Shown piece by piece: positions 32,811 through 59,734 of a stretch of 64,000 nucleotides of DNA. How positions within the stretch are numbered: the stretch's first letter is position 1; each line of letters opens with the position of its first letter. The position numbers and the translations under genes were made by a program. The notes beneath the pieces are model-generated. The model had not been told where the DNA came from. It saw nothing but the letters and a program-made list of their open reading frames with translations, and searched no databases. The DNA is from Paramacrobiotus metropolitanus. Taxonomy: Eukaryota; Tardigrada; Eutardigrada; Parachela; Macrobiotidae. The stretch covers positions 124,001 to 188,000 of the forward strand of contig NW_026570289.1 in assembly GCF_019649055.1 (NCBI RefSeq), given 5' to 3'.

Positions 32811-32829
32811 TCCGACTAACCAAGTCGGA
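32811..32829. repeat. hairpin element H1
   Basis: 5' arm TCCGACT, loop AACCA, 3' arm AGTCGGA. A 7-bp perfect stem. Confidence 0.7.
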
Positions 32830-33014
32830 AGGAAATCGCCGACCACACAGGCCGAGCGAAAATCTCCGACTAAGCAAGTTGGTGAACAACAACCGACTAC
32901 GGTGGCCGACCAACAAATGGTCGACCAGCCGCCGGCAAGAGAAGTCGGTCAACAGCAGGCCGACCTGCCCCAAACTCGAGAGGTCGAACAACCGACCTCG
33001 ACCGGAATGGATAA

Positions 33015-33059
33015 GCCGACAACAGAAGTCGGCAATGTCCAACCGACCACACAGGTCGG
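33015..33059. repeat. hairpin elements H2 and H3
   Basis: H2 (33015-33033) has arms GCCGAC and GTCGGC with loop AACAGAA. H3 (33043-33059) has arms CCGACC and GGTCGG with loop ACACA. Ten bases separate them. Confidence 0.75.
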
Positions 33060-33141
33060 AAGGTTTTCACCGACGGTCAGCAAACCGACAGGGAGAAAGG
33101 AAGTCGGCAACAAGCAACCGACTTCCTGGAACGGCAACCAA

Positions 33142-33156
33142 CCGACACAAAGTCGG
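33142..33156. repeat. hairpin element H4
   Basis: Arms CCGAC and GTCGG, loop ACAAA. Confidence 0.7.
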
Positions 33157-33283
33157 ATGCGGCCGTCCAGCCGACTAAATACCAACCAGAACGGAAGATT
33201 CCGAGGTACCGCCACGAAGCGGCCCTCACCCAGCTGGATCGCCGACTAGCATACCAGCACCCAACGAACGGGTTATTTCACCG

Positions 33284-36121
33284 TTGAGCCGACCTTCGCC
33301 AACCGGAAGCGAGTCGACTCGAGTAACTGAAGCTCAACAAACGGTGAAGTCGACTAAGGCGACACAAAGTCGACCTGTCGACCTGAAAATCCGATCGTCA
33401 CCACCGATGTTCGAACCTGGCGAACTCGGTAGCACTCCGTCACCAACAAACGAAGTCTTTGACGCAACAAAGGTGTCAAGACCGAATAGTGCGGACGGAT
33501 TCTTCACAACACCGGTGAAGTCCAACAAGGACGACCTCACCTACCAGGCCAGTACACTCGAATATACGGCCGAGAAGTGGATAGCGGCAACACCGCCCGA
33601 AAGGATCGTAGACGTCGACCTACTCCGCTCGAGATGCCGTAGACTGATCACTCAGATCGCTTTGGCAGACAGAATTATCGACTCGGCGGGAAAATCGCTC
33701 CGAAACTCGGAAGATACCCATCGGCTCGAACGAAGCAAATGGGAACGCGAAATGGCCGACGCCAACAAAGGCATCGCCATCCAACAACGGGAAATCGATC
33801 GGCTCAATGCCATACTGAAGCGTACCGACCAACCGTGTCGGCATGACATCGACGAAGCTACTACACTCAAGGGCATGTTGGATCGATCCATGGATGCGGT
33901 TCACGAGCTGAACCGAGAACTCGCCGAAGCGAACAAAGCGCTCGAAGAAGCCCAAAAAGACCTGGCCGACGTACAAACCGCACTGGTCGAGTCCGAGCAG
34001 GCAGCTGGAGCGTTCCACCAGCAACTCAACACGGCCAACGAAGAAGCCGAGGTCTATCGAAACGAAGTCGATAGATATGTGGTGGAACTGAAGAAGGCCG
34101 ACGACGAGATCGACCGCCTAACACACAGAGTCGACGAGCTCGAGTCGGAAATTGAACTCGTCTTCACCAGAATGGGACGACGGTTCATCGACGAGAACGC
34201 TCGGGACATGGGCTTTCCTAACCAAAGGACAGCCGATGTCGACCTGGTGGAAGCAAACGCCCAGCTGGCTGACCAGGTCCATGGACTGAACCAAGTCCTT
34301 AAGGAGGAACAGAAACTCCGAGCTCAACTCGAGTACAACTTGAACGAGGCCCAAAAGGTAAACGAGGCGCAACACAGTCGCATCCTTTACCTGGAGGCCC
34401 GTGAAGTCGAACTGTACGACTTCGGCGAACAGGCCGCCCGCAATCTCACAGATATGATGCGGCAAATGGACGAAATGGACATCGAAACAAGATGTCTGAG
34501 GGAAGAAAAGAAACACCTGGAACAAAGCCAGGTCGAACTTCCCCCATACCAAGAACATAGTCGGGTTGAACCGCCCTCATACCGGACGTCCATGGCACAG
34601 GATCAACAGCCGTCACGAACAATCAGTGACATCCTGTGGGGAATTAACCCGACCCAGGAAATGGTGAAGAAGGAGAACAACACCTCCTACTTCGTCGGAG
34701 TCGTAACAACCGACCCGAGTGTGGGAACAATCCCACAACCACCAGCAGTACCGAGTGCTCCGGAACCGGAACACAACACGTCGACCGCGGCACCACGAGT
34801 GCCAACGACGAACGTGGCGACAACGACGTCGGCTGGTGCGTATACCAGCACCTCGTACGCGACGCGCACAACAATGTACGCGCCAGTACCTAACGCCAGG
34901 AGAGACTGGACAACGGACGCCGAACGTCTCCCAATCCAGCCACCAAGACCTGGCATGGAGGCATACCGGCCACCACGGACGAATTCCAACCCGAACTTGC
35001 TCCGCCAGAACCCGCAGTTCGACCTTGAACGCGGGCGAGCTCGGTCATTCAACACGGCCGACCAGCAGCAGGACGGACGAAACGGAGAAGACAGCTCCGA
35101 CCAACAAGGCCGGAGGCCTCCAAACCGACTTACACAGAGTCGGATGCCGGCTCAGGGAACACAGCCCGACCGGTACGGAAGAGTCTACGATCAACCGAGC
35201 GGATTCTATCCGCCGGCGCCGAGACAAAATCGAGCGCCCCTTCCACAACAGTATGGAGGACAGCCGCAACAGCCTCGTCACGCAGACCAGGCTCAGGCTC
35301 GACATCCGCAACAGGACGGATACGAAGGCCATGACGACGATGCCTACCAACAGGAGGCGTACGAAGACCAACAAGGTCACATGCCATACGTCAATCCACC
35401 ACCCGCCCCGGCTGCACAACAAGCTGCGCCGGCGGCACACCCAACTCCCTTGGAACAAAACCCAGCACACGTTGCTTTGGTACGAGCAATAGCCCACGGA
35501 CGTCGGCAACCCTTACCACCGTTCGACGGGGACCACACCAAACTTCATGGGTGGCTTAAGCAAATCCGAAGCCTGTATCGTCAAGCCCAACGATGGTATG
35601 AAGACGATCAGACCTTCATGTCCGACTTGATAGCCGAACTGGACGGCCAAGCGAAAGAATGGCATACTCTCGAAGCCGCCGGAGAACCACTCGGCGGATG
35701 GCCAGTCAACTTATGGCTGACCAAATTCGAGCAGAGATTTGCGGACAAAAACAAAGAAGTGAACATGATATCCAGGATTAACAAACGGATATTCCGTTTC
35801 GGCGAAGAAACGCCGGAACAATACTACGACGCAATGATGTTCATGAAGTCCCAAGTCCCGACGGTCACAGACCAAATCATACTGTACCACCTTAAGGAGA
35901 ACGTTCATGAGCCCCAACTGCGGGCGGCCCTGGAAATCAGGATGCCGTCAACGCCGATCGAGTTCCGCGACTATTTACGGGACTTCGTCAACGGCAAGGA
36001 GATGTACGAGGTACGTAAGTCGCGTGACAGCGACTACGCTAGAGTTCGGGCAGCAACACCTGCACCTGTCCCGACTCCACCTCCGGCGATACCGCAACAG
36101 ACTGGATATCAGCCCACATGA
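33284..36121 (+). CDS. Gag: coiled coil and capsid
   Basis: An open frame of 945 codons; its first ATG (MFEPGELGSTPS) is at about codon 42. Residues about 140-400 are heptad-rich coiled coil (ERSKWEREMADANKG, LNRELAEANKALEEAQKDL, RLTHRVDELESEIELV). Residues about 420-720 are Pro/Gln-rich linker. Residues about 730-915 match a Ty3-type capsid (retrotransposon gag): PFDGDHTKLHGWLKQI, MSDLIAELDGQAKEWH, NLWLTKFEQRFADK. The coiled coil ahead of capsid is unusually long. The stop overlaps the next start as ATGA at 36118-36121. The expected role is assembly of the particle that packages the RNA. Confidence 0.8.
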   Translation: MSRPSPTGSESTRVTEAQQTVKSTKATQSRPVDLKIRSSPPMFEPGELGSTPSPTNEVFDATKVSRPNSADGFFTTPVKSNKDDLTYQASTLEYTAEKWIAATPPERIVDVDLLRSRCRRLITQIALADRIIDSAGKSLRNSEDTHRLERSKWEREMADANKGIAIQQREIDRLNAILKRTDQPCRHDIDEATTLKGMLDRSMDAVHELNRELAEANKALEEAQKDLADVQTALVESEQAAGAFHQQLNTANEEAEVYRNEVDRYVVELKKADDEIDRLTHRVDELESEIELVFTRMGRRFIDENARDMGFPNQRTADVDLVEANAQLADQVHGLNQVLKEEQKLRAQLEYNLNEAQKVNEAQHSRILYLEAREVELYDFGEQAARNLTDMMRQMDEMDIETRCLREEKKHLEQSQVELPPYQEHSRVEPPSYRTSMAQDQQPSRTISDILWGINPTQEMVKKENNTSYFVGVVTTDPSVGTIPQPPAVPSAPEPEHNTSTAAPRVPTTNVATTTSAGAYTSTSYATRTTMYAPVPNARRDWTTDAERLPIQPPRPGMEAYRPPRTNSNPNLLRQNPQFDLERGRARSFNTADQQQDGRNGEDSSDQQGRRPPNRLTQSRMPAQGTQPDRYGRVYDQPSGFYPPAPRQNRAPLPQQYGGQPQQPRHADQAQARHPQQDGYEGHDDDAYQQEAYEDQQGHMPYVNPPPAPAAQQAAPAAHPTPLEQNPAHVALVRAIAHGRRQPLPPFDGDHTKLHGWLKQIRSLYRQAQRWYEDDQTFMSDLIAELDGQAKEWHTLEAAGEPLGGWPVNLWLTKFEQRFADKNKEVNMISRINKRIFRFGEETPEQYYDAMMFMKSQVPTVTDQIILYHLKENVHEPQLRAALEIRMPSTPIEFRDYLRDFVNGKEMYEVRKSRDSDYARVRAATPAPVPTPPPAIPQQTGYQPT
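35125..35143. repeat. hairpin element H5
   Basis: Arms CCGACT and AGTCGG, loop TACACAG, inside the Gag linker. Confidence 0.65.
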
Positions 36122-36903
36122 TGCCGGGATACCAAACTCCAACGGCACAATACGGACAACTCAGTCCGGCTCCGACGCCACCGGTGCAACAAGCACCAGT
36201 CCAGCAACAGACGTGGGCAGGCGCGGCAGCAGCGAACCTGAATCCCCCAGCACCTGGAGTAGGAGCCCCCGTTAACAACTACGGCGGCCCAGGTTACAGC
36301 TCGGGTGGTAACCAAAGCAACACAGGTTTCGGTTACGAACAGAATCCTAACCAGGGGTACTCCGCATACGGACAGTATCCCCCACAAGGATACGGCGGCG
36401 GAGGCTATGGTCGCGGAAAAGGACGCGGCGGCGGGAATCGCGGCCGTGGGAACTTCCCTAACCGCGGCGGAGGCGGCGGCCCACAAGGCAACCGACCTCC
36501 CCAGGCACAACAAAGTGCTCGGCAAGGAACATCGTACGTTGATAAGATGGAGGCAGCCTTCTTCCAGTGGACGAAGGACAAGACCTTCCGATGCAGGCAC
36601 TGCATGTTCAACAACCATGACGAGTCGCGCTGCATCTATGGCTCGGATAACAATCCGAACCTTCGGTGGTACGACGACTGGTACCGCCGATACTCGATGA
36701 ATGGCCCGGTAGGCTCGGTCAATCCCTTCTGGAAGGATATTGTGCCGCCGCCGCGCCAACGCCAACAGGCAGGAGGCTCGGGTAGCCCCGGTAACCGAAA
36801 CCGGTCGCCCGGCCAGGGAATGGCGGAAACCGCAACAGTAGCGGTGGGAACCAACAAGGTTCCCCGGCATACAGAGAACCGTTGCCGCCCCGCCAGTCGT
36901 TGA
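36118..36903 (+). CDS. Gag C-terminal part: glycine-rich region and CCHC nucleocapsid knuckle
   Basis: A frame of 261 codons opening with ATGATG. Residues about 60-130 are Gly/Tyr/Gln-rich with RGG-like repeats (GGYGRGKGRGGGNRGRGNFP), an RNA-binding style. At 36592-36633 lies C-x2-C-x4-H-x4-C (CRHC, four residues, H, four residues, C), a canonical retroviral zinc knuckle. The C-terminus is Pro/Arg-rich. It follows the capsid frame with a 4-nt stop/start overlap. It may be made by termination-reinitiation or be one Gag split by a frame change. Confidence 0.75.
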   Translation: MMPGYQTPTAQYGQLSPAPTPPVQQAPVQQQTWAGAAAANLNPPAPGVGAPVNNYGGPGYSSGGNQSNTGFGYEQNPNQGYSAYGQYPPQGYGGGGYGRGKGRGGGNRGRGNFPNRGGGGGPQGNRPPQAQQSARQGTSYVDKMEAAFFQWTKDKTFRCRHCMFNNHDESRCIYGSDNNPNLRWYDDWYRRYSMNGPVGSVNPFWKDIVPPPRQRQQAGGSGSPGNRNRSPGQGMAETATVAVGTNKVPRHTENRCRPASR

Positions 36904-36964
36904 ACTCGACGCCACCCAACAATGGGCCGGCTCGGAGTAACTCCCCGGGAAACGCCCAAGGTCG

Positions 36965-39265
36965 ATGAGCTCCGGTGACTCATTCGACCTCCAACATCCG
37001 ACCGAACCACCGGACAAGGATAACCCCACTAATCAGCCGCTAACTTCCCGGAACGAGCCGAACTTAGATCCGTTACAACAACGGATCGTAACAGTCCTAA
37101 ACACATTAGGACTGGATTGGATCAGTTGCACGGAAGACGAACTTCTTACGGCACTGTCCGCCTCTACAAAGGAGGCAGAAGCTGCTCGAATTAAGGCAGC
37201 CGAACTCGGAATTTCCATCAACAATGGAGAAATCGAGATCCGGACCGGAACGCAAGAAATGCCCGGCCGAACTGATCCAGCGCGTCGACTTGGCTCTGGA
37301 ACATCGGAAGCTCGGAACGAACCGAACTTTCCTACAACGATAGAGGAAGGCTACCAACAGGTAGCCACCATCCTCCAACTACTCGGACTGAACGAAAACA
37401 GCTCCGAGGAGGATTTCGCACAGGCGATATCGGCCTCCACAAAGGAGGCGGAGACGGCTCGGAAGTTAGCCGCTCAGTTCGGCGTGTACGCCAACAATGG
37501 CACCGTCGAAGCGTGGCCCGGGATGCAACAAGCACTCGAGGCGACCGACCCAGCCCCTCGATTCGAAGCTGGAACGTCGGAGGTCGGAACGCAGAAATTG
37601 CCCGACCTAAGCAGTGCGAACAAAGCGACTGCGCCGTCCGCCACACAAAGTGACGTAGTACGGCCCGGCCACGGAAGTTGGACCGGATTGCCGGTGAGGA
37701 TAAACTCAACCGAGCAGGCCAGACGATGCCCAAGACGCGGAGGACCGGGACGCCGATTCACGCACCGGGGCAACAGAAACTTCCCCAATGTATCATCCGG
37801 ACGCGCAACGGATAGATACGCTGCGACAATGGCAGCCATCGACCTCACCGAAGAATCGGAAGGAGAAGTCGAAGAATGGGAAACAGTCCCATTGGGAGCA
37901 CAGGTACCCGTTTACTCTCGGCCGGGAGAAGCGGACCTCTTCCAGCCAAAAGAGCGACCAGCCAGAACGATAGCCAGCTCTAGAACATTCCTCAACATCG
38001 ACTACATGTGGTCGAAATTGAGGCCAACAGACACCTCAATAGAGGAACGGATACTGGCTCAGGCACAACGGTTCCGAACCGCCAAATTACCGGAGGACGG
38101 AGTAGCTAACCGACCTGAGGTACAGGAAGCGGGTGAAGTCGGAGTCGAACTTACACAAAGTTCAACTCAACAGCCAGCCGACCACGGACCGGTGTCACTA
38201 ATTCCCATCAAACCAACGATACGGGAAGTAACCTTTGAGAAGGGAACGCATAAGAAACCGAAAACAGTTCGAGCTTGGACACACGAAATCCAAGTCGGAT
38301 CCACGCCCACAATGGCGATGTTAGATACCGGAGCGGAGACTTCGCTCATCGAACAACGGTTTTGCGAGAGGAACGGTTTAACGATGCAACCCCTCGGACA
38401 TTACACCAAAATACTTGGAGTGGGCGGACAAGTCGCCTTTGTAGTGTCACACTGCTGTACGGCACCTGTAACAATGCAGGGCTTTACTAGCCATCACACA
38501 TTCCATGTCCAGCCGACCGAAGCGGATATCCCAGTGCTACTCGGATGCGACTACCTGCATTCGAAGTTCACTTTTATTCTTACACCAATTCCAATTCCGG
38601 AACAACCGGAAGGAAAGACGGTAGTGCAGTCTATCCCGATACCAGAGGCATCGGACACGGTAGGAAACGAAGCTCGGATTAGTCGGCTTGATCACCCGGC
38701 GAACTCCACACGTAAAATCTGCCGCGATTGCCGGGATACGAACCGCACTCTGTTGGAGGAACTAGCACTCCACAACGTGATAGAGCACTATCAGAAACGG
38801 ATACGCAACGGTACACTACGAACGGCAAGGACGGTACTGAAGTCTATCCCGATACCAGAGGCACCCGCTGAAGCGGATGCCCAGAACCTAGAACGAGTAC
38901 GACAAAAGTACCGAACTTGGTTCTCGGGAGCTCGACACTTTCTCGACCAACGGACGTTGGAGATGGTGACCACTCTGCGACAGAACGGAGCGGTAACTTA
39001 CGAGCAAATACGGGACGCACAACAAATGTGTGAACCAGTAATCGCCCTCATGAACGACATAGAGGACGAAGCATGGGAATGGGAAGATGAACGAATTCCG
39101 ATCCATCGACAGTACATGGAATACGGACTTCCCGTCCCACGGCCTTTGGAAATGCCCTGCCAGGAACTAGGCTTTCAACTTTTGCCTATATGCAGCGAGT
39201 TCAGTTGCACGGAGAATCGTCAACGACCGCATTCTGGCAACGGTATGGCGAAGACACCGCTATAA
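36965..39265 (+). CDS. retropepsin-containing polypeptide
   Basis: 766 codons from ATG. The N-terminal half holds two copies of a module (about residues 20-90 and 110-180) with the shared core ALSASTKEAEAARIKAAELG / AISASTKEAETARKLAAQFG. The aspartic protease has its DTGAETSLI active site at 38324-38350, then ILGVGG and VLLGCDYLHSKF, the usual flap and C-terminal glycine regions. It dimerises in known retroelements to cut Gag and Pol. The C-terminal third has two copies of a SIPIPEA-containing stretch. It overlaps the next frame by 76 nt. Confidence 0.8.
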   Translation: MSSGDSFDLQHPTEPPDKDNPTNQPLTSRNEPNLDPLQQRIVTVLNTLGLDWISCTEDELLTALSASTKEAEAARIKAAELGISINNGEIEIRTGTQEMPGRTDPARRLGSGTSEARNEPNFPTTIEEGYQQVATILQLLGLNENSSEEDFAQAISASTKEAETARKLAAQFGVYANNGTVEAWPGMQQALEATDPAPRFEAGTSEVGTQKLPDLSSANKATAPSATQSDVVRPGHGSWTGLPVRINSTEQARRCPRRGGPGRRFTHRGNRNFPNVSSGRATDRYAATMAAIDLTEESEGEVEEWETVPLGAQVPVYSRPGEADLFQPKERPARTIASSRTFLNIDYMWSKLRPTDTSIEERILAQAQRFRTAKLPEDGVANRPEVQEAGEVGVELTQSSTQQPADHGPVSLIPIKPTIREVTFEKGTHKKPKTVRAWTHEIQVGSTPTMAMLDTGAETSLIEQRFCERNGLTMQPLGHYTKILGVGGQVAFVVSHCCTAPVTMQGFTSHHTFHVQPTEADIPVLLGCDYLHSKFTFILTPIPIPEQPEGKTVVQSIPIPEASDTVGNEARISRLDHPANSTRKICRDCRDTNRTLLEELALHNVIEHYQKRIRNGTLRTARTVLKSIPIPEAPAEADAQNLERVRQKYRTWFSGARHFLDQRTLEMVTTLRQNGAVTYEQIRDAQQMCEPVIALMNDIEDEAWEWEDERIPIHRQYMEYGLPVPRPLEMPCQELGFQLLPICSEFSCTENRQRPHSGNGMAKTPL
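38147..38163. repeat. hairpin element H6 (changed stem)
   Basis: Arms GAACTT and AAGTTC, loop ACACA. The stem differs from CCGACC/GGTCGG at several positions yet pairs fully, so both arms changed together. Confidence 0.75.
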
Positions 39266-40722: not shown

Positions 40723-41315
40723 CAATGGTAGAAGTCGTCCTGGACGTACCGGTATCCAAGGACCAAAAATTAATGTACCTCGGTGAATCCGACCCCAAAC
40801 GAGACGGAGTCGAATTCATGGACGGCGTAACCAAGCATGACGGGAAACGATTCACCGTCATGGTGGCTAACCACACTCATCGGGAAGTCACCTTACGCAA
40901 AGGTGCCCCGATGGGCCGAGCTGAAGCATTTACTATGATGACGGACGACCAGAAGGTCGAAGAGGCACGAGTCAACACGGCTGAAGTCGAGCAGGAAGAC
41001 GCGGAATCCCAAGAGGAGCGACGAAGAATCATCGACTCCATGAACTTCGGTAAAAACTTAACCGACGAGCAACTAGCCAAACTGAAGGCAGTTGCATGGG
41101 ATTACCGGACTGTATTTCCGACCTCGAAGAAACCCTACGGGGACGTCAAAGGGGTAACACATACCATTGACGTCCAGGGCGCACAGCCGATTAAGATGAA
41201 CCCCACCAGGACAAGCTGGAAGGGACGTGAATTCATCCAAAAACACGTGCAAGAGATGCTCGACCAAGGAGTCATCGAACCGTCATCGGCTGCATGGAGC
41301 TTCCCGTCGTCTTAG
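40590..41315 (+). pseudogene. reverse transcriptase N-terminal part (frame closes at 41315)
   Basis: 241 codons. The C-terminal half has LTDEQLAKLKAVAWDYRTVF, then GVTHTIDVQGAQPI, then EMLDQGVIEPSSAAWSFP, the normal start of a Ty3 reverse transcriptase. The frame is lost at about 41308 and the domain resumes in the frame from 41294. Confidence 0.8.
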
Positions 41316-42358: not shown

Positions 42359-42666
42359 CGAGATGGGCACTGGCTTTACAAGGACGGGACATAACCATCG
42401 AGTATAAGCCAGGAGTTTTCTGCGACAATGCGGACGCCCTGTCGAGATGGCCACTCGAACGTAGTGACGACAAAGATCCACACGAAGAGTTGGACCAAGT
42501 CCCCAACTTCGAGGACTTCAAGGACGAAATCAAGGTCTGCACAATACGGACTCTTAGACGTCTGAAGGCAAATGCCTCAAAGAAAAGGAAGAAGGATCTG
42601 AAGGAACCACCGAAAATCCCCTCCACCGGTTCTCCCCGGATGCAATGTCATAACCGACTGGGATGA
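42214..42666 (+). pseudogene. RNase H C-terminal tail in shifted frame
   Basis: From about 42345 this frame reads RLTRWALALQGRDITIEYKP and then FCDNADALSRW, the normal end of Ty3 RNase H. Its first 45 codons are only the shadow of the preceding frame. Confidence 0.7.
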
Positions 42667-42667
42667 C

Positions 42668-43177: not shown

Positions 43178-43187
43178 ACTCCAGAAG

Positions 43188-44816: not shown

Positions 44817-44992
44817 GGCCATAGGTGTAAAACTTAGAATAAGTTTTAGGTAGCTTAACAGTAGCTAGGTATAGATGGACCTTTGGTGTCGAAATGGAAC
44901 CTCTTCAGTTGACCGGAACATCTTCAGTTGAATGTACGGGAGTTGGTAGAATTCTAACGCGCCGTATTTCCTTTCCTTGACAGCAAGCGACA

Positions 44993-51093: not shown

Positions 51094-54000
51094 AGGCGAC
51101 CCCGTCTTCCCTACCACCGGCCGAAGAGAAGCCGAGCCCGTCGCGGAAAGTGATGGGAGCAAAAGCCTTGTTTACTCCGGCCGTCCATAAGAAGCTAGTC
51201 GGCCAAGCTAAAACGCTGGACCTTCAACGGATACTCTACGAAGCACAACTTCAAGGAGGTATTCGAGATCGGACCATGACAGAAGAGCAACAGACTCAAA
51301 TGGCCCAGAAGATCCATGCTACCATCCAGGATAGAGACAAAGTCCTGAGAAGGTTGGTTACTCTGAGATGCGGAAAGCAGGAGCTACGACAACTCCCGCT
51401 GGATACGAACATGATCCAGACGATTCAGCGGCTCCGCAATCCGAGCATCAACCCGGGCGCCTACACATTGGAGATTCAACCTCGGCCTGGAGAAGAGGTT
51501 ACCGAGAAGATTCCGATAACAATGTCGGATAGTAGCGAAGATGAGGAGAACGCGGACAACATCGACTCCGACGACTCCATGCATCAAAAGGCAGCGGCAC
51601 CTACGAAGGGATCTACACCGAAACGAGGTAGATCGCCGGTAAAGCAGATTTCGCCGACTCGATCAGCATCCCAGCCGACTAAGCTGCCAAGTCAACCGAC
51701 GACTGAGAAACCACCTAGGTTCTCACCTCGGAACACCCCAACGAAACCAAAGAAAACCGAAGAAGCGATGGATACAACATCCCCTTCGGAAGCGCGAGTC
51801 GGAATTACGGTCGAAACGTCACCACAAAGGGACGAACCGACCTCCGTTCACTCTGGTCCACGTCTAACAATAGACGAGTCTCGAACGAACGAGTCGACGA
51901 CCGAGTCGGGTAACATACCGACCAAACGGAGTACGGCCAAGGAGAAACCACCTCAAGACTCGTCGCGGGAATTTCATGACGACCTAGCCCTACAACACGT
52001 AAAGGACTTAACGAGGTCGGAACAGGACGCCTGCATCGACATGGCGTACCCAGAGGATAGGGAACTCTGGCATTCGCTGAGAATCCGACGTGCCAGTATA
52101 GTCGGAAATACCACGGAAGCTCGGCGTGACCACGACCGACTTACCGAGAAGATGGCCGACGTGATGAAACGAATGGGAGAACACTACCGGGCGGAAAGGA
52201 GTCGACCTAAAGCCCTACAAGAGGCTACGCCGACTCAGCGCAAAGCCACCGCCCCGGAACCCAAGTCAACCAAGAAGACGGTACAACCACCCGTCGTCAA
52301 AATGAAAGTTCCCCCTCCGATTAGACAACCTTCTGTCCAAATCGACGATGATCTCGACGCAAGGGTCATCAACTCGGCTAATTCCGCGAAATCCCACAAG
52401 GATAAACGGAAGGCTAAGAAGGAAGCAGCAAAACAGTCTGCCAAGCCGCAACCGACGGAAACCCAAAAGAAACCAGTCAAGTCGGAAACCAAGGAGCCGG
52501 CCAAACCGAAGTCGGACTCCACGGTTAAGACGCCGAAGCCCAATCCGGCCAAGCGGCATAAGTCATCCGACGACTTGGATATTTCGGATGCCGGCCCACA
52601 AAGGACCGAGCAGAAGGAGAAGGCTCAAGAACCGCACGACAAGGAGGCGGTCGAACGGAAATTTAAGGAAGTCATGGAACGAACCGGCACAAAGCCGGCT
52701 AAGACTTCAGGAGGTCGGCTACGAAACCCACCAAGACCACCGACCCCGCCCGAACAATCTCAGCCTTCAACATCCAAGCAACAGTCCGATGTAGAATCCG
52801 ATCAGGCCTCGGACATTGAAGATAAGGATTCAATCTCCGACCACGGAGATGGGGATCCCTATGAAGGATTTAAAGGCGACATGAAAGAAATGTTTAACCA
52901 TGGAGCGGACACCGACGAATCCCAGTGGCCAGCTCCAGACGATGTACGCGAGCGTCTTCCGGACGAACAGCCGGAGGACCCGGTCGACACATTAATCCGC
53001 ACAGTCCGCGTACACGTCGAAGTCGTCCGTAGTATTCGGAGTGCCAAGGAAAATGGCAGGGACATCTACCAATCCCTGGTACAAGACTTGTCGAATAACA
53101 TACAAGTCGAAGGCGAAACCGGAAAGTGGTTAACGCATCAACTCATGATGCAAATCGTCGCCTGGACTCTCGACTATGGATTAGCAGTCGCCGTCCACCG
53201 ACAATGGGGACGAATGGCTGAACTTATCCAACCGGACCTCATCAAGTCACTTAAAAGTGCAGCAGCAAGGAACGCGGATGACACACCGACTAGAATTGCA
53301 CGGTGTATCGGATACATTCGGAACCCCCGCGGATCGACTCTGGTCCAAATCGCCCGTGTATACAACGTGATGTACATGGACAAGAAGGGGAACATCGACG
53401 AAATTATCACGTATAGGATAGGCGAACGAATCGCGCTCCTGGTCGAGCAACATACTCTCCAGACGACTAATGCGGAACGCGATGTGCCAGTTCGGTATAC
53501 CGTGCCAAACTTCATACCGGAACAACATCGGCGTGAATTCAACCTCCGGATGTCTTACGTCAACACGGACAAGCCTCCGGCGGGCACGGAACCGACCGAA
53601 GAATACAGTGAATCCAACGAACAACCGTCGGAAGATGCAGCCACTTTGCTGCATATAGCTCGTACGGCTGCACAGTCGTCACAAAGACGAGTACAAGCCT
53701 TAACCCGACCTCGAGCACCGCACGAACCGACAACATATGTCGGCACGGCATCGGCTCCGGCGGGACGAGCAAGCACAGCCAAACCAACTCGGAGTGCGAA
53801 GGGACGGTTTATACCGAAGGACGTACAGTCACTTCCACCGTCCTCGCCTATGGAAATTTCGCCGGAACCAGAAGACTCGACCCAACAGAAGGGAAAGTCG
53901 AAGTCGACTAAAACGAAGTCGACTAAGCCGGCTAAGAAAAAGGAACCGAAGTCATCCGAGCTGATCTCGTCATCCGAGGAAGAAACCGAAGACGAAGACG

Positions 54001-55079
54001 ACGACGACGAAGATTTCCGAACACCCGGAAATGGATCGCCGAAGGATGACGACGACGACGACGATGGAAACGGTAAACCCCCACCACCGTCGAGCTCGGC
54101 ACCTCAACAGCAGGCCGAACCGGAGATACCGGCTAAACAACCCGAAGAGAAGGATAGCGGCGACAAGGCCGACGACTCCAAGAGTAACGAAGACGATGGC
54201 GGAGTATACGTTCCTCGTCAGTACGGTAAACGAGTACCACTGACGCCCGACTCCGACCACCAGCCACTTCGCTCGGACTTCCATGAGGATATGATAGAAG
54301 TCCTACCAGACGACATTCCCCCACTGGTCAACGTTAGGTTGAAGTATACCGGCATTAAATCGGCTTCGAAACCCAAGCCGAGTGTCTCGGAATATGACGC
54401 CGGATGGATGTACACATTCGCCGCTCTGAAGGCCTTAGCCACACGAGGACCGAAGTTCGCCACACCAAGAATCGCCTTCAAACTCCTCCAACACTGGAAG
54501 GTAGATGAGACGGGCGATTGGCGACAACTTAGTCAGAACAACGTACGACACTACTGCGACCTAGGATACCATGCTGGGAAGTTGATACGTACATACACCA
54601 GCGGAAAGCGGATGTACTACGAGTTCCCACCGGCTAAGAAAGACCCGGCTCCTTCAACATATGAAGGATGGATACACGCTATTGAAGCGTGCATGGAAAT
54701 GTCCTGGCACCCTGACGGACTTACCCGCGGAGAAATACTCCACCAACTTATAGCGCGGTTTGAGTTCCAGTGGACATCGACGGAACCGCAGCTGGTCGAT
54801 CCCAAATACAAGGCCAAACCGGACACGATTGCCGGACGGAAGAAGTACTCCCTGGACGACGAACTAGAATTCGTCATATCGAAGGCACTCTACCAACAAC
54901 AATTCGCCACAAATACCGATAAAACCCAAGGCGGTCAACGGTTTATCGCCTTAAATCCATCAAATCATCGACATGGACATTTACCGAAGGAACGACCGAC
55001 CTCGGCACAATCGACCGAGTTGGCCGACTCGCACCAAGCAAGTCGGCTCGGGTCGCCAGAAGCACCTACACGGGAATGA
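51081..55079 (+). CDS. giant unknown protein, about 1308-1332 aa
   Basis: A 4.0-kb open frame overlapping the previous one by 13 nt. The first ATG is near 51153 (MGAKALFTPAVHKKL). Residues about 25-130 look folded and helical. A long Lys/Pro/Ser/Glu-rich disordered region follows. A helical block at about residues 650-840 comes next (LIRTVRVHVEVVRSIRSAKE, RIARCIGYIRNPRGSTLVQI). An acidic run (DDDDEDF, DDDDDDDG) is next. The folded C-terminal region at about residues 1100-1290 (YTFAALKALATRGPKFATPR, GKRMYYEFPP, ILHQLIARFEFQ) is possibly of winged-helix type. No enzyme motif was recognised. Confidence 0.6.
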   Translation: MEILKATPSSLPPAEEKPSPSRKVMGAKALFTPAVHKKLVGQAKTLDLQRILYEAQLQGGIRDRTMTEEQQTQMAQKIHATIQDRDKVLRRLVTLRCGKQELRQLPLDTNMIQTIQRLRNPSINPGAYTLEIQPRPGEEVTEKIPITMSDSSEDEENADNIDSDDSMHQKAAAPTKGSTPKRGRSPVKQISPTRSASQPTKLPSQPTTEKPPRFSPRNTPTKPKKTEEAMDTTSPSEARVGITVETSPQRDEPTSVHSGPRLTIDESRTNESTTESGNIPTKRSTAKEKPPQDSSREFHDDLALQHVKDLTRSEQDACIDMAYPEDRELWHSLRIRRASIVGNTTEARRDHDRLTEKMADVMKRMGEHYRAERSRPKALQEATPTQRKATAPEPKSTKKTVQPPVVKMKVPPPIRQPSVQIDDDLDARVINSANSAKSHKDKRKAKKEAAKQSAKPQPTETQKKPVKSETKEPAKPKSDSTVKTPKPNPAKRHKSSDDLDISDAGPQRTEQKEKAQEPHDKEAVERKFKEVMERTGTKPAKTSGGRLRNPPRPPTPPEQSQPSTSKQQSDVESDQASDIEDKDSISDHGDGDPYEGFKGDMKEMFNHGADTDESQWPAPDDVRERLPDEQPEDPVDTLIRTVRVHVEVVRSIRSAKENGRDIYQSLVQDLSNNIQVEGETGKWLTHQLMMQIVAWTLDYGLAVAVHRQWGRMAELIQPDLIKSLKSAAARNADDTPTRIARCIGYIRNPRGSTLVQIARVYNVMYMDKKGNIDEIITYRIGERIALLVEQHTLQTTNAERDVPVRYTVPNFIPEQHRREFNLRMSYVNTDKPPAGTEPTEEYSESNEQPSEDAATLLHIARTAAQSSQRRVQALTRPRAPHEPTTYVGTASAPAGRASTAKPTRSAKGRFIPKDVQSLPPSSPMEISPEPEDSTQQKGKSKSTKTKSTKPAKKKEPKSSELISSSEEETEDEDDDDEDFRTPGNGSPKDDDDDDDGNGKPPPPSSSAPQQQAEPEIPAKQPEEKDSGDKADDSKSNEDDGGVYVPRQYGKRVPLTPDSDHQPLRSDFHEDMIEVLPDDIPPLVNVRLKYTGIKSASKPKPSVSEYDAGWMYTFAALKALATRGPKFATPRIAFKLLQHWKVDETGDWRQLSQNNVRHYCDLGYHAGKLIRTYTSGKRMYYEFPPAKKDPAPSTYEGWIHAIEACMEMSWHPDGLTRGEILHQLIARFEFQWTSTEPQLVDPKYKAKPDTIAGRKKYSLDDELEFVISKALYQQQFATNTDKTQGGQRFIALNPSNHRHGHLPKERPTSAQSTELADSHQASRLGSPEAPTRE
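52684..52698. repeat. hairpin element H13 (changed stem)
   Basis: Arms CCGGC and GCCGG, loop ACAAA. Confidence 0.7.
53676..53690. repeat. hairpin element H14 (changed stem)
   Basis: Arms TCGTC and GACGA, loop ACAAA. Confidence 0.7.
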
Positions 55080-55331
55080 GGAAACGCAGAACGCGTTGGG
55101 AGAGAGGCATAACCGACCTCCTCCCATTGACACCACATAGGCGTCATCGACCAACAGAAGTCGACTTACCTCATTAGACGACCACAAAGGCGTCTTGGAC
55201 CAGTTCGAGAACCGACCTGGCCCGACCGTAGTAATTATAGGGTGTAAATTATAGGATGCAACCGAGAAACGGTTTGCTGACTTTTGTTTTGACAGACTCG
55301 TACGGAAGAGCCCCGAACGGAAGCCTTCACG
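55080..55331 (+). other. short non-coding gap in giant element
   Basis: Contains hairpins near 55129 (GAC-CC / GG-GTC around ACATA), 55150 (TCGAC / GTCGA) and 55179 (AGACG / CGTCT around ACC-ACAAA-GG). Confidence 0.5.
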
Positions 55332-55349
55332 GTGGACTGCCAACAGTGC

Positions 55350-56090
55350 ATGGATAATGCGACGAGGGACAACAACAGAATGCCCTGCGCGCTGTGCATC
55401 GTATCCTTTACGAACGAACGAATTTCCGGCACCGGAGCGCAACACCGTGCTCAGGCGGCGGCACTTTACCTAAACGTTGTCGCTGGCAATTTGAGCGCAT
55501 ACCGGTACTTGGCCGGCAGAGAATACCTGATTAATCAACTGGAGTCATATGAACAGGACAATCTGGCTACAATTCAGCGACAACGAGCTCGCGACCCGAG
55601 ATGGGAAGAAACTCGACCACCAGTCCTAACAAATAGGCTGTTCGAGTACCGCCAGATGCTGGACCTGCAACGTCAACTTGACGACCAGAAGAAGATAAAG
55701 GAGGTCGATAGGAAGATCGCCACAATGCGAGTCCATCCACCACCGACCGATTTCGAACCGGAAATAAAGATTCGGGTACAGACACCCACACAGGGTCTCC
55801 CGACAGTCGGAGAATTAACTCCTACAATACGCGATGTCTTTCGTCGGAGATCCGAACCGACCGATGACCGGCGCATCTATAACGATGATGATGAATATGC
55901 CGGACGGAACTCAACAGCCAGTTACCTTCACACCGGCAACTCAGGAACAGTTGATGGCAATCCCACACAGGGCAACGCCAGTGGTCACACAGGCCCGTCC
56001 AACTGTTTCTCAGCAGATTCCTCAATCCGGAATCCCTGGAAATCGCGCTCAACAGCAGCGCCGACCGAGCAAAAACCTTGCGGGACATGA
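55350..56090 (+). CDS. unknown protein with CxxC and helical module
   Basis: Open from 55332 with a first ATG at 55350. Early residues include CIVSFTNERI after a CxxC (CALC). A helical segment (LYLNVVAGNLSAYRYLAGRE, LNLQRQLDDQKKIKEVDRKI-like) follows, then a disordered end. It overlaps the next frame by about 260 nt, and the true junction is not clear. Confidence 0.4.
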   Translation: MDNATRDNNRMPCALCIVSFTNERISGTGAQHRAQAAALYLNVVAGNLSAYRYLAGREYLINQLESYEQDNLATIQRQRARDPRWEETRPPVLTNRLFEYRQMLDLQRQLDDQKKIKEVDRKIATMRVHPPPTDFEPEIKIRVQTPTQGLPTVGELTPTIRDVFRRRSEPTDDRRIYNDDDEYAGRNSTASYLHTGNSGTVDGNPTQGNASGHTGPSNCFSADSSIRNPWKSRSTAAPTEQKPCGT

Positions 56091-57339
56091 TCTTAGACAC
56101 CGGATTGGCCCAGTTGATCTTCGAGACAGAATCGAAGCGCAACGAGCCGTTATCCATGAAGCGGGAAAGGAGCCAACCAGAGCTCCACCAGGGAAACGTA
56201 CTGGATCTGGAGAAACAGGGATCGGACTTACGGTCGACTTAACAAATAAGTCGAAACGTAACGTCATCCCACCTGAACAACGGCCGGAAGCTCAACAAGC
56301 AGAACCACCGGCCGAAGTCCAAGCTGAACTGGCAGCTCAACAGGAGCAGATGGACGTCGACGTAGCCGACCAGATGGCACAACTGCCACAAGTGGAAGTG
56401 CCGATCCGAGAAGACCCTCGCTATGACCGAGCTCGACAACAAGGAATCGAGGTCGTCATGCCACACCCTACCGAAAGGACGAACCACATTATGAACGTCA
56501 TGAATTACGAGGAACGGTACCGACCACAAATCTGGCGGATGGTAGAAAACCTTCGTCAATTCCTCGTCCGATCCGGATATCAGGCGCTGTTCGAACAACA
56601 CCAGTGGCAGGCCGACTTCAACATGAACGCGCACACAGCGCCGAATGTTGAACACCCGTACACCAGATCGAATGCGTTGCCGTCGATGACCGACCCGGTC
56701 TTGCTGAATGTACCATTGTACAGCCCGGACGGAACACGTGCGAGCCAACTAGGAGCTCGGGAATACTCCCATGACGAGTTGGAGAGTGTTGCCCAGTTCG
56801 TCATTACGGACGCACACCCAGCCTTTGTAATCACCGCGGCTCGGGCAGCACTGGACTTAACCCAGTATCTTCCGGAAGGAGAAGTCGACACGGCCCAAGA
56901 CGGAGTCACGGCATTCCTGCGATTCATCTTCGCAGCTCGACTCGGCAATTACTTTTGCCATTACACCTTGTACGGACTGTACCAGAACGAGATGATACCA
57001 GCGGCTGTGGAAACCCTCGTAGCCCAACTCGGCACACCGATGAGAAGTGTTATCCTAGCTGTCTGGATGCGTGACTTGCTGTACACCCACGAACGGTATG
57101 CGACAAAGTATGCCTTTCGTGAGGATCACGTAGATCCCAGCGACGACGCAACTCGATTCATCAGCTGGTACCGCGAAAAGAAAACTTTGCCTAGCGGATT
57201 CAACTCGTCGCCCTACGAACCTTGGATGTCGGATGACATAGCACCTGGCGTACGACCATATGCGCTGCGGCTCCGCAAAACAAGCGGCCAAGGAATCGAG
57301 GAAGAGCAGAGCGGAGCGCTTAGGCCAAGAAACGGATGA
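55834..57339 (+). CDS. unknown folded protein, 501 aa
   Basis: From ATG. The N-terminal 180 residues are disordered (Gln/Pro/Arg). From about residue 225 to 485 the composition is that of a globular, mostly helical domain: WRMVENLRQFLVRSGYQALF, ESVAQFVITDAHPAFVITAA, FLRFIFAARLGNYFCHYTLY, VILAVWMRDLLYTHERYATK. It has the last large frame of the element and ends in a short basic tail. No membrane anchor or signal peptide is seen, so it is not envelope-like. It resembles a capsid- or coat-like helical domain only in general character. Confidence 0.55.
   Translation: MSFVGDPNRPMTGASITMMMNMPDGTQQPVTFTPATQEQLMAIPHRATPVVTQARPTVSQQIPQSGIPGNRAQQQRRPSKNLAGHDLRHRIGPVDLRDRIEAQRAVIHEAGKEPTRAPPGKRTGSGETGIGLTVDLTNKSKRNVIPPEQRPEAQQAEPPAEVQAELAAQQEQMDVDVADQMAQLPQVEVPIREDPRYDRARQQGIEVVMPHPTERTNHIMNVMNYEERYRPQIWRMVENLRQFLVRSGYQALFEQHQWQADFNMNAHTAPNVEHPYTRSNALPSMTDPVLLNVPLYSPDGTRASQLGAREYSHDELESVAQFVITDAHPAFVITAARAALDLTQYLPEGEVDTAQDGVTAFLRFIFAARLGNYFCHYTLYGLYQNEMIPAAVETLVAQLGTPMRSVILAVWMRDLLYTHERYATKYAFREDHVDPSDDATRFISWYREKKTLPSGFNSSPYEPWMSDDIAPGVRPYALRLRKTSGQGIEEEQSGALRPRNG
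56620..56649. repeat. hairpin element H15 (two-part stem)
   Basis: Inner arms GCGC and GCGC around loop ACACA; outer arms AACAT and ATGTT. Confidence 0.68.
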
Positions 57340-57662
57340 GACTGACGAGATGTCTCAGCGGAGTGGCCCGGCGACTTGCAAACCAAGGGACCCGAATATA
57401 CGGCCACATAACCGACCTGGCCCGGACGACGATGAAGAAGAAGATTACTTCGGCGGCGACAAACCTGTCGAAGTTCCACTCAGTTAAGATCGTGTTCCCA
57501 CACTGGAACTCGATCCCATATTGGAATAACTTCAAGGAGGCATTGCCGAGAAACGGCACGGTCGAGAACCGACCTTCCGACTGAGAAACAGTCTAGCTGA
57601 GAAACAGCGCCGTCGAGAACCGACTTCGGAATGGACACTTCCCTCTAGTTTTCTTTTGGAAA

Positions 57663-58160
57663 ATGACTAACCATGTACGCGGCGGACGTCAACGACGGTT
57701 TTGCCAGAAGGCCGACTACACAAGTCAGCCGGATTCTTTGGTCGGACCCGGAAACGCGTGGTTAGACCCGGGTATTTCGGCTCTTTCACCGTACCGGTAC
57801 GTCCCCAAGGAATCCCCTGGAACGAACTGGGCAACCGACCCCAGTTCCCCAGCTTGGCAAAAACAGATCGTAACCACATCTGCTAACAAAGCAGATCGTC
57901 AACCACGTTCTGCGACCATCGGAGCCAACAGAAGCCCCAATCCGCGTTACATGGAGATTACTCCGGCCAACCGACTCCGGAGAAGAAACCGAGAGGATTA
58001 CGCTAACATGGCGCGGAACACGTCGCTGCGCGCGTTCCACGCCATGTTTGCCAAGCACCCGTGGCCAACTTCGGAACCGGGTAGCCGAGCAGCCTTCACC
58101 ATTGTAAACAGCGGAAATCCTCGGCCGAGCCGCCAACAGTGCAGGAAGACTCGGATTTGA
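57663..58160 (+). CDS. small basic unknown protein, 165 aa
   Basis: An ATG start (MTNHVRGGRQRRFCQKADYT), rich in Arg, Asn, Pro and Ser, with about 27 Arg/Lys. No domain recognised. It may be a real accessory frame or chance. Confidence 0.35.
   Translation: MTNHVRGGRQRRFCQKADYTSQPDSLVGPGNAWLDPGISALSPYRYVPKESPGTNWATDPSSPAWQKQIVTTSANKADRQPRSATIGANRSPNPRYMEITPANRLRRRNREDYANMARNTSLRAFHAMFAKHPWPTSEPGSRAAFTIVNSGNPRPSRQQCRKTRI
57878..57896. repeat. hairpin element H16 (changed stem)
   Basis: Arms ATCTGCT and AGCAGAT, loop AACAA. A 7-bp perfect stem with no CCGAC core. Confidence 0.75.
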
Positions 58161-58164
58161 CTAG

Positions 58165-58198
58165 GTACGAGAGCCGACCACAAAGGTCGACTTCGTAC
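58165..58198. repeat. hairpin element H17 (two-part stem)
   Basis: Outer arms GTACGA and TCGTAC; inner arms CGACC and GGTCG; loop ACAAA. Confidence 0.8.
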
Positions 58199-58233
58199 TT
58201 CGCCCATAACTTGGAGACATAACGGATACTGCT

Positions 58234-58263
58234 GCGCAAGTCGACCACAAAGGTCGGTTGTGC
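58234..58263. repeat. hairpin element H18 (two-part stem)
   Basis: Outer arms GCGCAA and TTGTGC with one wobble; inner arms CGACC and GGTCG; loop ACAAA. Confidence 0.8.
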
Positions 58264-58266
58264 AAG

Positions 58267-58283
58267 CCGATCACAAAGATCGG
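58267..58283. repeat. hairpin element H19 (compensated stem)
   Basis: Arms CCGATC and GATCGG, loop ACAAA. Compared with CCGACC/GGTCGG, one base pair is exchanged on both arms. Confidence 0.8.
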
Positions 58284-58304
58284 TTTTGAAAACTGTTCGA
58301 CCTG

Positions 58305-58322
58305 TAACGACGCAGATCGTTA
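58305..58322. repeat. hairpin element H20
   Basis: Arms TAACGA and TCGTTA, loop CGCAGA. Confidence 0.65.
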
Positions 58323-58346
58323 GAACCACGACTCGCTACCTTTAAA

Positions 58347-58361
58347 CGATCACACAGATCG
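58347..58361. repeat. hairpin element H21 (compensated stem)
   Basis: Arms CGATC and GATCG, loop ACACA. Confidence 0.75.
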
Positions 58362-59341
58362 ACGGAGTATTTGGTAGCCGACCAACAAGAAGTCGACCAT
58401 GGACGGAAGCTGGCAGTAGCAACGTGGTAACTTAACCGGATTCTCCGTTTGAATCCAGACCTACAGGCTCTGTACCTGGAGATCAACCGCAGTCTCCCCC
58501 GGCCGATATCGGGTAAACCAGCCGATTCACCGGTGACCACGACTACGCGCGTCTCTGAACGTGCTGCCATTCCCTGAAGAGGAACAGCGACGGTGATTTG
58601 GATACTGGTGTACCAACGACTCCGCCGCGACCTGCTTCCCCATGCCTTCAATGGAACATCCTAGGCAGACTGAGTTAGAATACTCGACCTGCACCCCTTA
58701 ACGAACCCCGATGGCGATGCCCACTTGCCCGCAACAGTACCGGCCAGTCGGTCTTCGTCAGCGGCAAAGAAAAATTTCCCCGCGGACGTGAGTCGTCTAC
58801 CCCCAACAGAGCGGCTAGGCGTCACAGGTTCGCGACAAAACAGAATGGAAGAATCGGATCTGACGACCTCAGGGACTTGCATGTGCATGAAGTTTAAACC
58901 AAAGAGCTTGTCTCGGCAACCGGGGCCACAAAGACCCTTAGCGTTGTGAGCGAGCGCAGTGCATGATGAGACGCCAGCCAACCGGCCAACAGATGCCAAG
59001 AAACTCCTACCTCACAGGACTTGGCGACCCAGAAGCAAGTAATTCGGATTGACCGACCTCAACAGTAGCTCGGATCCGACCTGGAGTTCACGTCAGAAAT
59101 AACAGAAGGAACGGAGTTGTGCTGCCGAACATCCTTCTGCCAGTCCGAACTGACCGTGGGATGTCCTGACACCAAGGACCCGGCCAACTGTAGCCGAACG
59201 CACAGGACTCCTAAAATGAAGTTGACAACCACCAGATGGAGGTCGGAAGTAAGCGACAACAGCTCGGAAAACCAACCAGAAGTACGAAATCGACCTCTCA
59301 GTGGAAGAACTTACATTCCCGGCGGATAGACACAAAGTTTA

Positions 59342-59416
59342 TCCGACCTGGGGAAGTCGGAAAATAGCCGACCTCCGAACTTGGATATGGATATCCGACC
59401 TCAAGCCGAGGTCGGA
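59342..59416. repeat. hairpin elements H22 and H23
   Basis: 59342-59361 has arms TCCGAC and GTCGGA with loop CTGGGGAA. 59394-59416 has arms TCCGACCTC and GAGGTCGGA with loop AAGCC, a 9-bp perfect stem. Confidence 0.75.
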
Positions 59417-59713
59417 AGTGACCGTACACAAGTCGGTAGGGTACAACAACAAGTCGGCAAAGACATTCAGAAGTCGAGAACCGACCTCCTAACGGAAAAA
59501 TCCGACCTTCGGACGGATGGAAACATAGTTCATCCGACCTTCCGAAGTCGACCATAACCGACCACATGTCGGAAGTCGGCAACTTAGTCAACATGACGGA
59601 AGAAGAACGACAGATATCTGCGGTGGACGAATTCGACTTGAAGGAACTTGTTTAGCCCCACATGGGCATGTTATTGCAGGTTAACCCTAGTCGACCACTG
59701 ACGGATAGGATAA

Positions 59714-59734
59714 CCGACCTCGACAGAAGGTCGG
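59714..59734. repeat. hairpin element H24
   Basis: Arms CCGACCT and AGGTCGG, loop CGACAGA. Confidence 0.72.

Follow-up and report, generated by a model that had tools for sequence, protein, structure and literature searches.

A 64,000-nucleotide (nt) stretch of the genome of the tardigrade Paramacrobiotus metropolitanus (the window; positions 124001-188000 of contig C69 in a 169.8 Mb assembly) carries a giant Ty3-like long terminal repeat (LTR) retroelement of about 30.6 kb, in which small hairpins present a constant ACAMA loop (M = A or C) on stems of varying sequence. These hairpins are specific to strand and loop and are conserved, with compensated pairs, among copies of the element, while related lineages in the same genome have loops of their own. 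The data support the action of selection on hairpin structure. We propose that the hairpins may serve as dispersed recognition sites in the element's RNA.

Enrichment, strand and loop specificity

Hairpins were scored as a loop lying between Watson-Crick arms of at least 4 bp unless stated otherwise, and chance expectation came from re-deals, in which the 3' arms are reassigned among the sites and all words are kept. Between positions 32811 and 59734, 28 of the 118 ACAMA sites formed hairpins, against an expectation of 1.37 and a maximum of 5 in 500 re-deals. Over 31200-60450 the count was 30/128 (expected 1.41, maximum 6 in 500 re-deals), rising to 37/128 when G-U pairs were allowed (expected 3.35, maximum 10) and to 39/234 when all ACANA loops were included (expected 1.67, maximum 7). 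ACAAA (17/69) and ACACA (13/59) were by far the top loops, compared with 0.7% for all 5-mers. The dozens of constant-loop hairpins reported in a first-pass annotation of this DNA are thus real, and the eight arm pairs that it named are all present, with loops starting at 33049, 58273, 38153, 45976, 49464, 52689, 53681 and 56633. The second, outer stems that it had noticed at 45623, 56620, 58165 and 58234 appear in predicted minimum-energy folds, with z-scores of -2.6 to -3.5.

Dinucleotide shuffling, the control that the same annotation had suggested, fell far short of the observed number: for loops of 5 nt with arms of at least 5 bp in 32811-59734, 67 stems were found, while 20 shuffles gave a mean of 21.4 and a maximum of 31. 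Other loop lengths ranged from near chance to twice the shuffle mean (28/24.1 for length 3, 30/22.1 for 4, 32/22.3 for 6 and 44/22.6 for 8), and the counts for lengths 7 (73/24.9) and 9 (66/22.1) partly include the same stems again. With arms of at least 4 bp, the sequence flanking the element gave no hairpin at any of 220 ACAMA sites (0/111 on the forward and 0/109 on the reverse strand). The reverse strand of the element itself gave 0/12, a weak control, as ACAMA sites are few on that strand of the A-rich element. As had also been claimed, hairpins occur both inside coding frames and outside them: 26 of the 39 ACANA hairpins lie within eleven listed open reading frames (ORFs), where all three phases are used (16, 4 and 6). 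In seven ORFs, synonymous-codon shuffling reduced the observed 15 hairpins at 76 sites to a mean of 0.52 (maximum 5 in 100 shuffles). Arm re-dealing, both kinds of shuffle (synonymous-codon and dinucleotide) and the flank controls rejected word abundance, codon usage, peptide repeats and base composition as sources of the hairpins.

Of the 30 ACAMA hairpins, 22 are closed by C-G, 6 by A-T and 2 by T-A, and none by G-C. Predicted local pairing probabilities for arms of 4, 5 and 6 or more bp were 0.83, 0.97 and 0.98 (n = 11, 10 and 9), compared with 0.32, 0.60 and 0.71 for equally long arms around other loops (n = 121, 26 and 17); the surroundings therefore do not compete with the ACAMA stems. 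Genome-wide, the 15-mer CGACCACAMAGGTCG occurs 481 times and its reversed control once, and the places listed for it mostly form clusters of several within about 30 kb, as elements would give.

Two further loop classes were enriched in the element. Loops of the form ACAGA or ACATA formed hairpins at 9 of 106 sites (expected 0.51, maximum 4 in 300 trials), and AGAAM loops at 9 of 115 (expected 0.74, maximum 4 in 300 trials), with a G-C closing pair in eight of the nine. All nine AGAAM hairpins lie outside ORFs, as do 24 of the 115 AGAAM sites overall, and this class may mark leaders or gene boundaries.

Conservation and compensation among copies

A reverse transcriptase (RT) search of the same genome gave 1,601 candidates, of which the best 115, the window's own included, were scored. 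These matches have 81-100% RT protein identity, with stops in the matched part of 14, and represent at least 114 relatives. Those sampled were grouped as own90 (L042, L043, L062 and L065, on contigs C13 and C10; about 86-90% DNA identity to the window), g78 (L044-L048 and L061; RT identity 91-93%), g85 (L049-L052 and L059; 85-87%) and g82 (L053-L058 and L060; 81-83%), and pieces upstream of RT were taken for 20 copies. Copies L039-L043, which are 98% and 90% identical to the window, contain 6-8 ACAMA hairpins per 4.8 kb. In L063 and L064 (77-78% identical) these are thinner, at 3/16 and 2/16 sites, and CACNNAA hairpins were found at 1/13 and 1/12 sites (counts without permutation).

Individual hairpins illustrate how the arms change together. 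The hairpin at 38153 exists among copies as GAACTT/AAGTTC, GAACTC/GAGTTC and GGACCT/AGGTTC, with 18 of 18 alignment cells paired and two pairs altered on both sides; shuffles reach its score in 59 of 500 cases, a weak control because only three sequences are available. For the hairpin at 37439 the versions are GCCTCC/GGAGGC and GCTTCC/GGAAGC, and L044 has GCTTCA/TGAAGC around ACAGA. Pairing is intact in 43 of 48 cells, L046 and L063 having lost the innermost pair, and 3 of 500 shuffles matched the covariation score of 0.274. Among hairpins of the 3' non-coding region, pairing survives changes at 58239 and 59323 and survives with the use of G-U pairs at 57714 and 58347; at 58175 and 58264, and at the AGAAM hairpins of 57579 and 59473, the other copy has a gap over all or part of the hairpin.

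We then compared retention between loop classes in four pieces in which the window is aligned with copies of 86-90% identity, counting both directions and using arms of at least 5 bp; 8 motif hairpins and 19 others were left out because of gaps. The loop class of ACANA hairpins was kept in 30 of 30 cases, only 8 of 164 pairs were broken, and 9 of 17 changed pairs still pair. For hairpins with other loops, 53 of 297 pairs were broken and 16 of 69 changed pairs still pair. The difference is significant (Fisher p 4e-5, or 0.007 when the counts are halved to allow for double counting). Coupled changes of both arms had earlier been read as selection on structure, with loss of pairing in other copies as the finding to look for against it; the arms do co-vary between copies, and pairing is kept.

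Related lineages with other loops

The pieces upstream of RT contained no ACAMA hairpin in any of the nine g78 and g85 copies L044-L052. Inspection of the aligned places and a scoring of every loop showed that the g78, g85 and g82 groups each have a dispersed hairpin loop of their own: CAATA in g85, the 7-nt CACNNAA in g78 and, less sharply, the tetraloop YAMC in g82. Four motifs were examined downstream of RT in pieces of one copy per lineage. ACAMA formed hairpins at 7/38 sites in the window element (expected 0.5) and at 8/43 in own90 (0.4), CACNNAA at 14/26 in g78 (1.9), CAAYA at 20/50 in g85 (1.3) and YAMC at 17/246 in g82 (1.2). The resulting table of motif by subfamily is nearly diagonal, each of the 15 off-diagonal cells being 0 or 1; the reverse strand gave 0 in 19 of 20 cells and 1 in the remaining cell.

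CACC had joined the g82 motif, and CACNNAA and CAAYA had been widened, after inspection of the downstream piece, and a retest used upstream-derived motifs only (500 re-deals each). CAATA in g85 gave the cleanest result, with 17/33 sites (expected 1.26, maximum 5); the g78 motif gave 10/22 (2.05, maximum 6) and the g82 motif 11/163 (0.81, maximum 4). CACC, tested apart, gave 6/83 (expected 0.47, maximum 3). In L053, a more distant g82 relative, YAMC hairpins were found at only 3/129 sites. At one site, 39649, the loop on one and the same stem varies: the window and L063 have ACACA, own90 and L064 have ACAAA, and L044-L046 and L048 have CACAGAA together with a closing C-G pair that has turned into C and A; in L047 the stem is fully paired around ACAGA. 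Other subfamilies of the same genome thus bear the same kind of array with other loops. A recognition code, suggested in the first-pass annotation, is therefore backed more strongly than its author could know, because co-resident subfamilies use other loops.

Structure of the element and its neighbourhood

The features of the element are collected in Table 1. Its two LTRs are 94.7% identical over 438 aligned columns, and inspection by eye beyond the LTR ends noticed no matching short repeat as a target-site duplication. The sense strand is A-rich, with an AT skew of about +0.21 to +0.35 over 32-60 kb. In the pol region, PF13975, PF00078, PF17919, PF17917 and PF00665 matched above the Pfam cut-off, and the RT domain (41294-42358) precedes the rve domain of integrase (in 43188-44816). 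The best database match is 45% identical and has the same RT and RNase H domains. By these sequence features (RT-RNase H with an aspartic protease, RT before integrase, paired LTRs) the element is of the Ty3/gypsy type. The name Gag rests on position and a zinc knuckle; Pfam found no Gag family in these ORFs, with just two sub-threshold matches. The Pfam search of the accessory ORFs gave no match, and Rfam gave none above the gathering score in the window. At least 100 more Ty3-type RT-protein matches were scored in the same genome, with 40-50% identity to a spider RT; their open frames reach 2,982 codons.

Within the pol region, the stretch 37067-37176, which holds three hairpins, is present in the window, L039 and L041 and missing from the remaining 9 of the 12 copies aligned. 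Its peptide is similar to the repeat that comes next, around 37439, and may therefore reflect a tandem duplication. Beside the element, a cluster of papain-inhibitor-like (double-psi beta-barrel) genes occupies 1195-25306 on both strands; one was assigned by search and the rest by eye. A papain-inhibitor-like gene in the flank shares 98% identity with a P. metropolitanus protein, which identifies the host, and a COX1 search with the same aim gave no match.

Table 1. Features of the retroelement in the window (window coordinates; arms and loop given 5' to 3').
Feature	Coordinates	Strand	Remarks
Giant Ty3-like LTR retroelement, ~30.6 kb	30617..61171	+	LTR pair, AT skew, protease/RT-RNase H/integrase domains
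5' LTR	30617..31051	+	
3' LTR	60739..61171	+	
Gag-like ORFs	33284..36903	+	One CX2CX4HX4C zinc knuckle at 36592-36633
pol region: protease, RT-RNase H, integrase; several ORFs	36965..44816	+	Pfam above cut-off
Accessory ORFs, ~3,600 codons	45562..57339	+	No Pfam match
Predicted winged-helix fold	54330..55079	+	C-terminal domain of accessory ORF; candidate reader
ATCTTC-ACACA-GAAGAT	32277..32293	+	ACAMA
GAGCTC-ACACA-GAGCTC	32700..32716	+	ACAMA
CGACCA-ACAAA-TGGTCG	32907..32923	+	ACAMA; outer stem
CCGACC-ACACA-GGTCGG	33043..33059	+	ACAMA
CCGAC-ACAAA-GTCGG	33142..33156	+	ACAMA
CGAC-ACAAA-GTCG	33360..33372	+	ACAMA
GATCCGTT-ACAAC-AACGGATC	37067..37087	+	Loop outside ACANA
CAGTCCTAA-ACACA-TTAGGACTG	37092..37114	+	ACAMA
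GCCTCC-ACAAA-GGAGGC	37433..37449	+	ACAMA; compensated in relatives
GAACTT-ACACA-AAGTTC	38147..38163	+	ACAMA; three compensated versions among copies
CGCACA-ACAAA-TGTGTG	39016..39032	+	ACAMA; one G-U
CGACC-ACACA-GGTCG	39644..39658	+	ACAMA; CACAGAA loop at that place in most g78 copies
GGTA-ACACA-TACC	41153..41165	+	ACAMA; 14 occurrences over 30 RT-region loci
TCAAC-ACAAA-GTTGG	42948..42962	+	ACAMA; one G-U
GAGC-ACAAA-GCTC	44310..44322	+	ACAMA
CGATAACC-ACACA-GGTTGTCG	45968..45988	+	ACAMA
CGACC-ACACA-GGTCG	47606..47620	+	ACAMA
AACCC-ACAAA-GGGTT	49459..49473	+	ACAMA
GGATC-ACAAA-GATCC	50309..50323	+	ACAMA
TCTC-ACAAA-GAGA	50891..50903	+	ACAMA
CCGGC-ACAAA-GCCGG	52684..52698	+	ACAMA
TCGTC-ACAAA-GACGA	53676..53690	+	ACAMA
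CCTA-ACAAA-TAGG	55625..55637	+	ACAMA
ACCC-ACACA-GGGT	55784..55796	+	ACAMA
TCGACTTA-ACAAA-TAAGTCGA	56234..56254	+	ACAMA
GCGC-ACACA-GCGC	56629..56641	+	ACAMA; 8-bp outer stem
GACT-ACACA-AGTC	57714..57726	+	ACAMA
CGACC-ACAAA-GGTCG	58175..58189	+	ACAMA; outer stem
AGTCGACC-ACAAA-GGTCGGTT	58239..58259	+	ACAMA; outer stem
AAGCCGATC-ACAAA-GATCGGTTT	58264..58286	+	ACAMA
CGATC-ACACA-GATCG	58347..58361	+	ACAMA
CGGATAGAC-ACAAA-GTTTATCCG	59323..59345	+	ACAMA; contains G-U, outside Watson-Crick count; L065 arms altered yet paired
Nine ACAGA/ACATA hairpins	40600..54668	+	Loops starting 40604, 47440, 48062, 48790, 49624, 49933, 50035, 53733, 54657
Nine AGAAM hairpins (second class)	31663..59485	+	Loops starting 31668, 55088, 55265, 57549, 57565, 57584, 57600, 57616, 59477

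Candidate readers of the loops

Since different loops within one genome are unlikely all to be read by one host protein, the reader is probably encoded by the elements themselves. The accessory protein with a predicted winged-helix fold, whose predicted structure was compared using VIA-align, is only a candidate for this role, and a PDB sequence search with alignments of the winged-helix domain and of a second accessory protein, X, returned nothing convincing. Protein X (55834-57339 in the window, L061:1612-3923 and L059:1914-4352) is conserved at 60% and about 43%; the structure model of its domain had a mean predicted local distance difference test (pLDDT) score of 33 and was not used. It directly follows integrase in g78 and g85 and stands at the far 3' end of the window element, which indicates that accessory genes have been shuffled. 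The Gag zinc knuckle (36592-36633; compared in L040, L042, L063, L064 and L045) comes in two types, and elements that are otherwise alike have one swapped for the other, which suggests recombination of the nucleocapsid module. Separately, the g78 copy L061 (contig C42) seems to end early; its late hairpins are AT-rich and no winged-helix domain is listed nearby.

Interpretation and alternatives

On balance, we favour the view that the element's RNA carries the hairpins as dispersed cis-acting recognition sites, with a loop code specific to each lineage and most likely serving particle assembly. A stem of 4-9 bp of free sequence would present a fixed loop, ACAMA and usually closed by C-G, on the sense strand, about once per kb in coding and non-coding parts alike. 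An element-encoded protein would read this loop many times along one RNA, and the repeated reading would mark full-length self RNA, most likely so that it is assembled into particles. The loop of each subfamily (ACAMA, CACNNAA, CAAYA or YAMC) would have diverged together with its reader, placing co-resident relatives on separate channels. Whether such private, element-wide loop codes with a co-diverging protein amount to orthogonal recognition of self and non-self RNA, by which relatives are kept from packaging or regulating each other's RNA, is in our estimate an evenly balanced question. One may speculate that a 30 kb RNA needs many marks.

Several observations weigh against this proposal. 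At 37439, sliding the stem by one column still scores 0.250 compared with 0.274, though just 24 of 48 cells then pair. In the RT region hairpins are sparse, with 38 at 256 ACAMA sites over 30 loci. Upstream of RT, the g82 copies L053-L058 hold 0-2 ACAMA hairpins each, and in the g82 piece scored with the four motifs ACAMA (2/14, expected 0.3) occurs beside YAMC (8/126); CACNNAA in g78 reached just 2/15 (expected 0.4, maximum 3) and CAAYA in g85 2/11 (expected 0.2, maximum 2), so the separation of subfamilies is less complete upstream. The g82 motif is loose: among neighbouring tetraloop classes, RAMC gave 6/277 (1.39), YGMC 4/214 (0.77), YAKC 4/180 (0.71) and YAMG 0/138 (0.6), two or three of the four being slightly in excess, and many g82 hairpins have other loops. 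The five lineages sampled in depth are represented by one copy each, from one species. Finally, the type of Gag zinc knuckle does not track the type of loop: the own90 knuckle region is 88% identical to that of g78 and 45% to that of the window, and the own90 loop is still ACAMA. These comparisons lower the knuckle's standing as a putative reader. From the first-pass annotation, selection on structure and a recognition code are supported, whereas its suggestion of Gag binding is weakened by this failure of the knuckle to follow the loop.

Both regulation by the element and recognition by the host have to be considered. The same evidence for an element-encoded reader would fit a protein that binds the hairpins for a purpose other than packaging, such as the export of the unspliced 30 kb RNA from the nucleus, its stability or the control of its translation. 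The accessory proteins, one with a predicted winged-helix fold, and the placement of hairpins within coding frames and between ORFs agree with such a role, for which Rev with the Rev response element (RRE) and the MS2 repressor provide examples of autoregulation, here spread over many sites. Regulation normally takes one or few sites, however, and there are 28 over 27 kb here; we regard this role as unlikely, while giving it real weight. Use of the hairpins by a host RNA-binding protein, either exploited by the element or acting as a defence sensor, appears quite improbable. Cellular RNA-binding proteins often target small hairpins of this loop-specific kind, and a different host protein for each subfamily is conceivable in principle, but subfamilies of the same genome differ in loop, which one host protein would not impose, and loss of a feature sensed by host defence would be selected, yet the hairpins are retained.

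We consider it very improbable that the structure works in single-stranded complementary DNA (cDNA), for example as integrase or nucleocapsid sites or as RT pause sites. The motif is strand-specific, but so are the cDNA strands, and a comparison of G-U with A-C pairs, which could have favoured sense RNA, fell short of significance (p 0.18 and 0.08); several stems nonetheless need G-U pairs of the sense strand, such as those at 58239-58286 and 59323-59345. Least probable of all is an origin of the hairpins as by-products of repeated words, of codon or peptide bias, or of template switching during reverse transcription that turns imperfect palindromes into perfect ones. CCGACC/GGTCGG words do recur in the 3' region, the loop is in phase 0 in 16 of 26 coding cases, and hairpins of other loops and loop lengths also exceed shuffles. 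Even so, this origin is strongly disfavoured by the controls: arm re-dealing, which keeps the words, gives 1.4 compared with 28-30, and synonymous-codon shuffles give 0.52 compared with 15. In addition, the arms differ widely, the ACANA loops are all kept and their pairs are kept far better than those of other hairpins, and a mutational process would not explain why the fixed loop differs from one subfamily to the next.

Comparison with known systems

MS2 and PP7 coat proteins with their operators offer a parallel to the divergence of loops and readers that we propose, as these related proteins each have their own hairpin loop; unlike the arrays described here, they have mainly one strong operator per genome and belong to separate phages rather than co-resident elements. 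The published systems that follow were compared as described in excerpts of the cited articles. The coat protein of satellite tobacco necrosis virus (STNV) prefers an AXXA (ACAA) loop whatever the stem, with up to 30 stem-loops in 1,239 nt (PMC3593212), and multiple dispersed sites have been modelled as promoting assembly (PMC6281560). Like the packaging signals of STNV (AXXA) and MS2 (xxYA), the array of the window consists of many short dispersed stem-loops with free stems and a fixed loop motif, and its hairpins are conserved or compensated in relatives; in these features it resembles signals of this kind. By analogy, we propose that it works like dispersed packaging signals. It differs from them in its carrier, a 30 kb animal LTR retroelement, in the statistical sharpness of the signal in raw sequence, and in the different loops of related elements within one genome.

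Yeast Ty3 is likewise a Ty3-type LTR element. Its packaging and retrosome localisation need untranslated regions and POL sequence, the cis-acting sequences being not precisely defined (PMC11381356). Nucleotides 429-4979 of yeast Ty3 are dispensable when the proteins come in trans (PMC4974528), so dispersed internal signals are not general to Ty3 elements, a further point against our proposal; unlike for the window element, the excerpts on yeast Ty3 make no mention of dispersed constant-loop hairpins. The planarian Burro elements, compared by description only, resemble the window element in exceeding 30 kb and in their Ty3/gypsy-like pol and many extra domains, and no hairpin array appears in the excerpted description (PMC6431247). 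A literature search, outside which lay supplementary files and subscription papers, found in the text it covered no description of such hairpins in an LTR element. In the text covered, a paper on tardigrade transposons mentions Paramacrobiotus 0 times in its main text (PMC11071193) and the P. metropolitanus paper contains 'transpos' 0 times (PMC11191345).

Significance

The RNA features by which Gag-type proteins choose their own RNA are, in the excerpted text, not precisely defined for Ty3 elements (PMC11381356), and proposed viral packaging signals are described as short and degenerate (PMC6475782). The present array belongs to an animal retroelement, stands out in raw sequence and exists in at least four versions within one genome. 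These co-resident loop versions constitute a natural orthogonality experiment, in which pairing the loops with the proteins of each subfamily should reveal the reader. From such pairing one would learn how related selfish elements come to have separate recognition codes, and it would also yield a set of short orthogonal hairpin tags.

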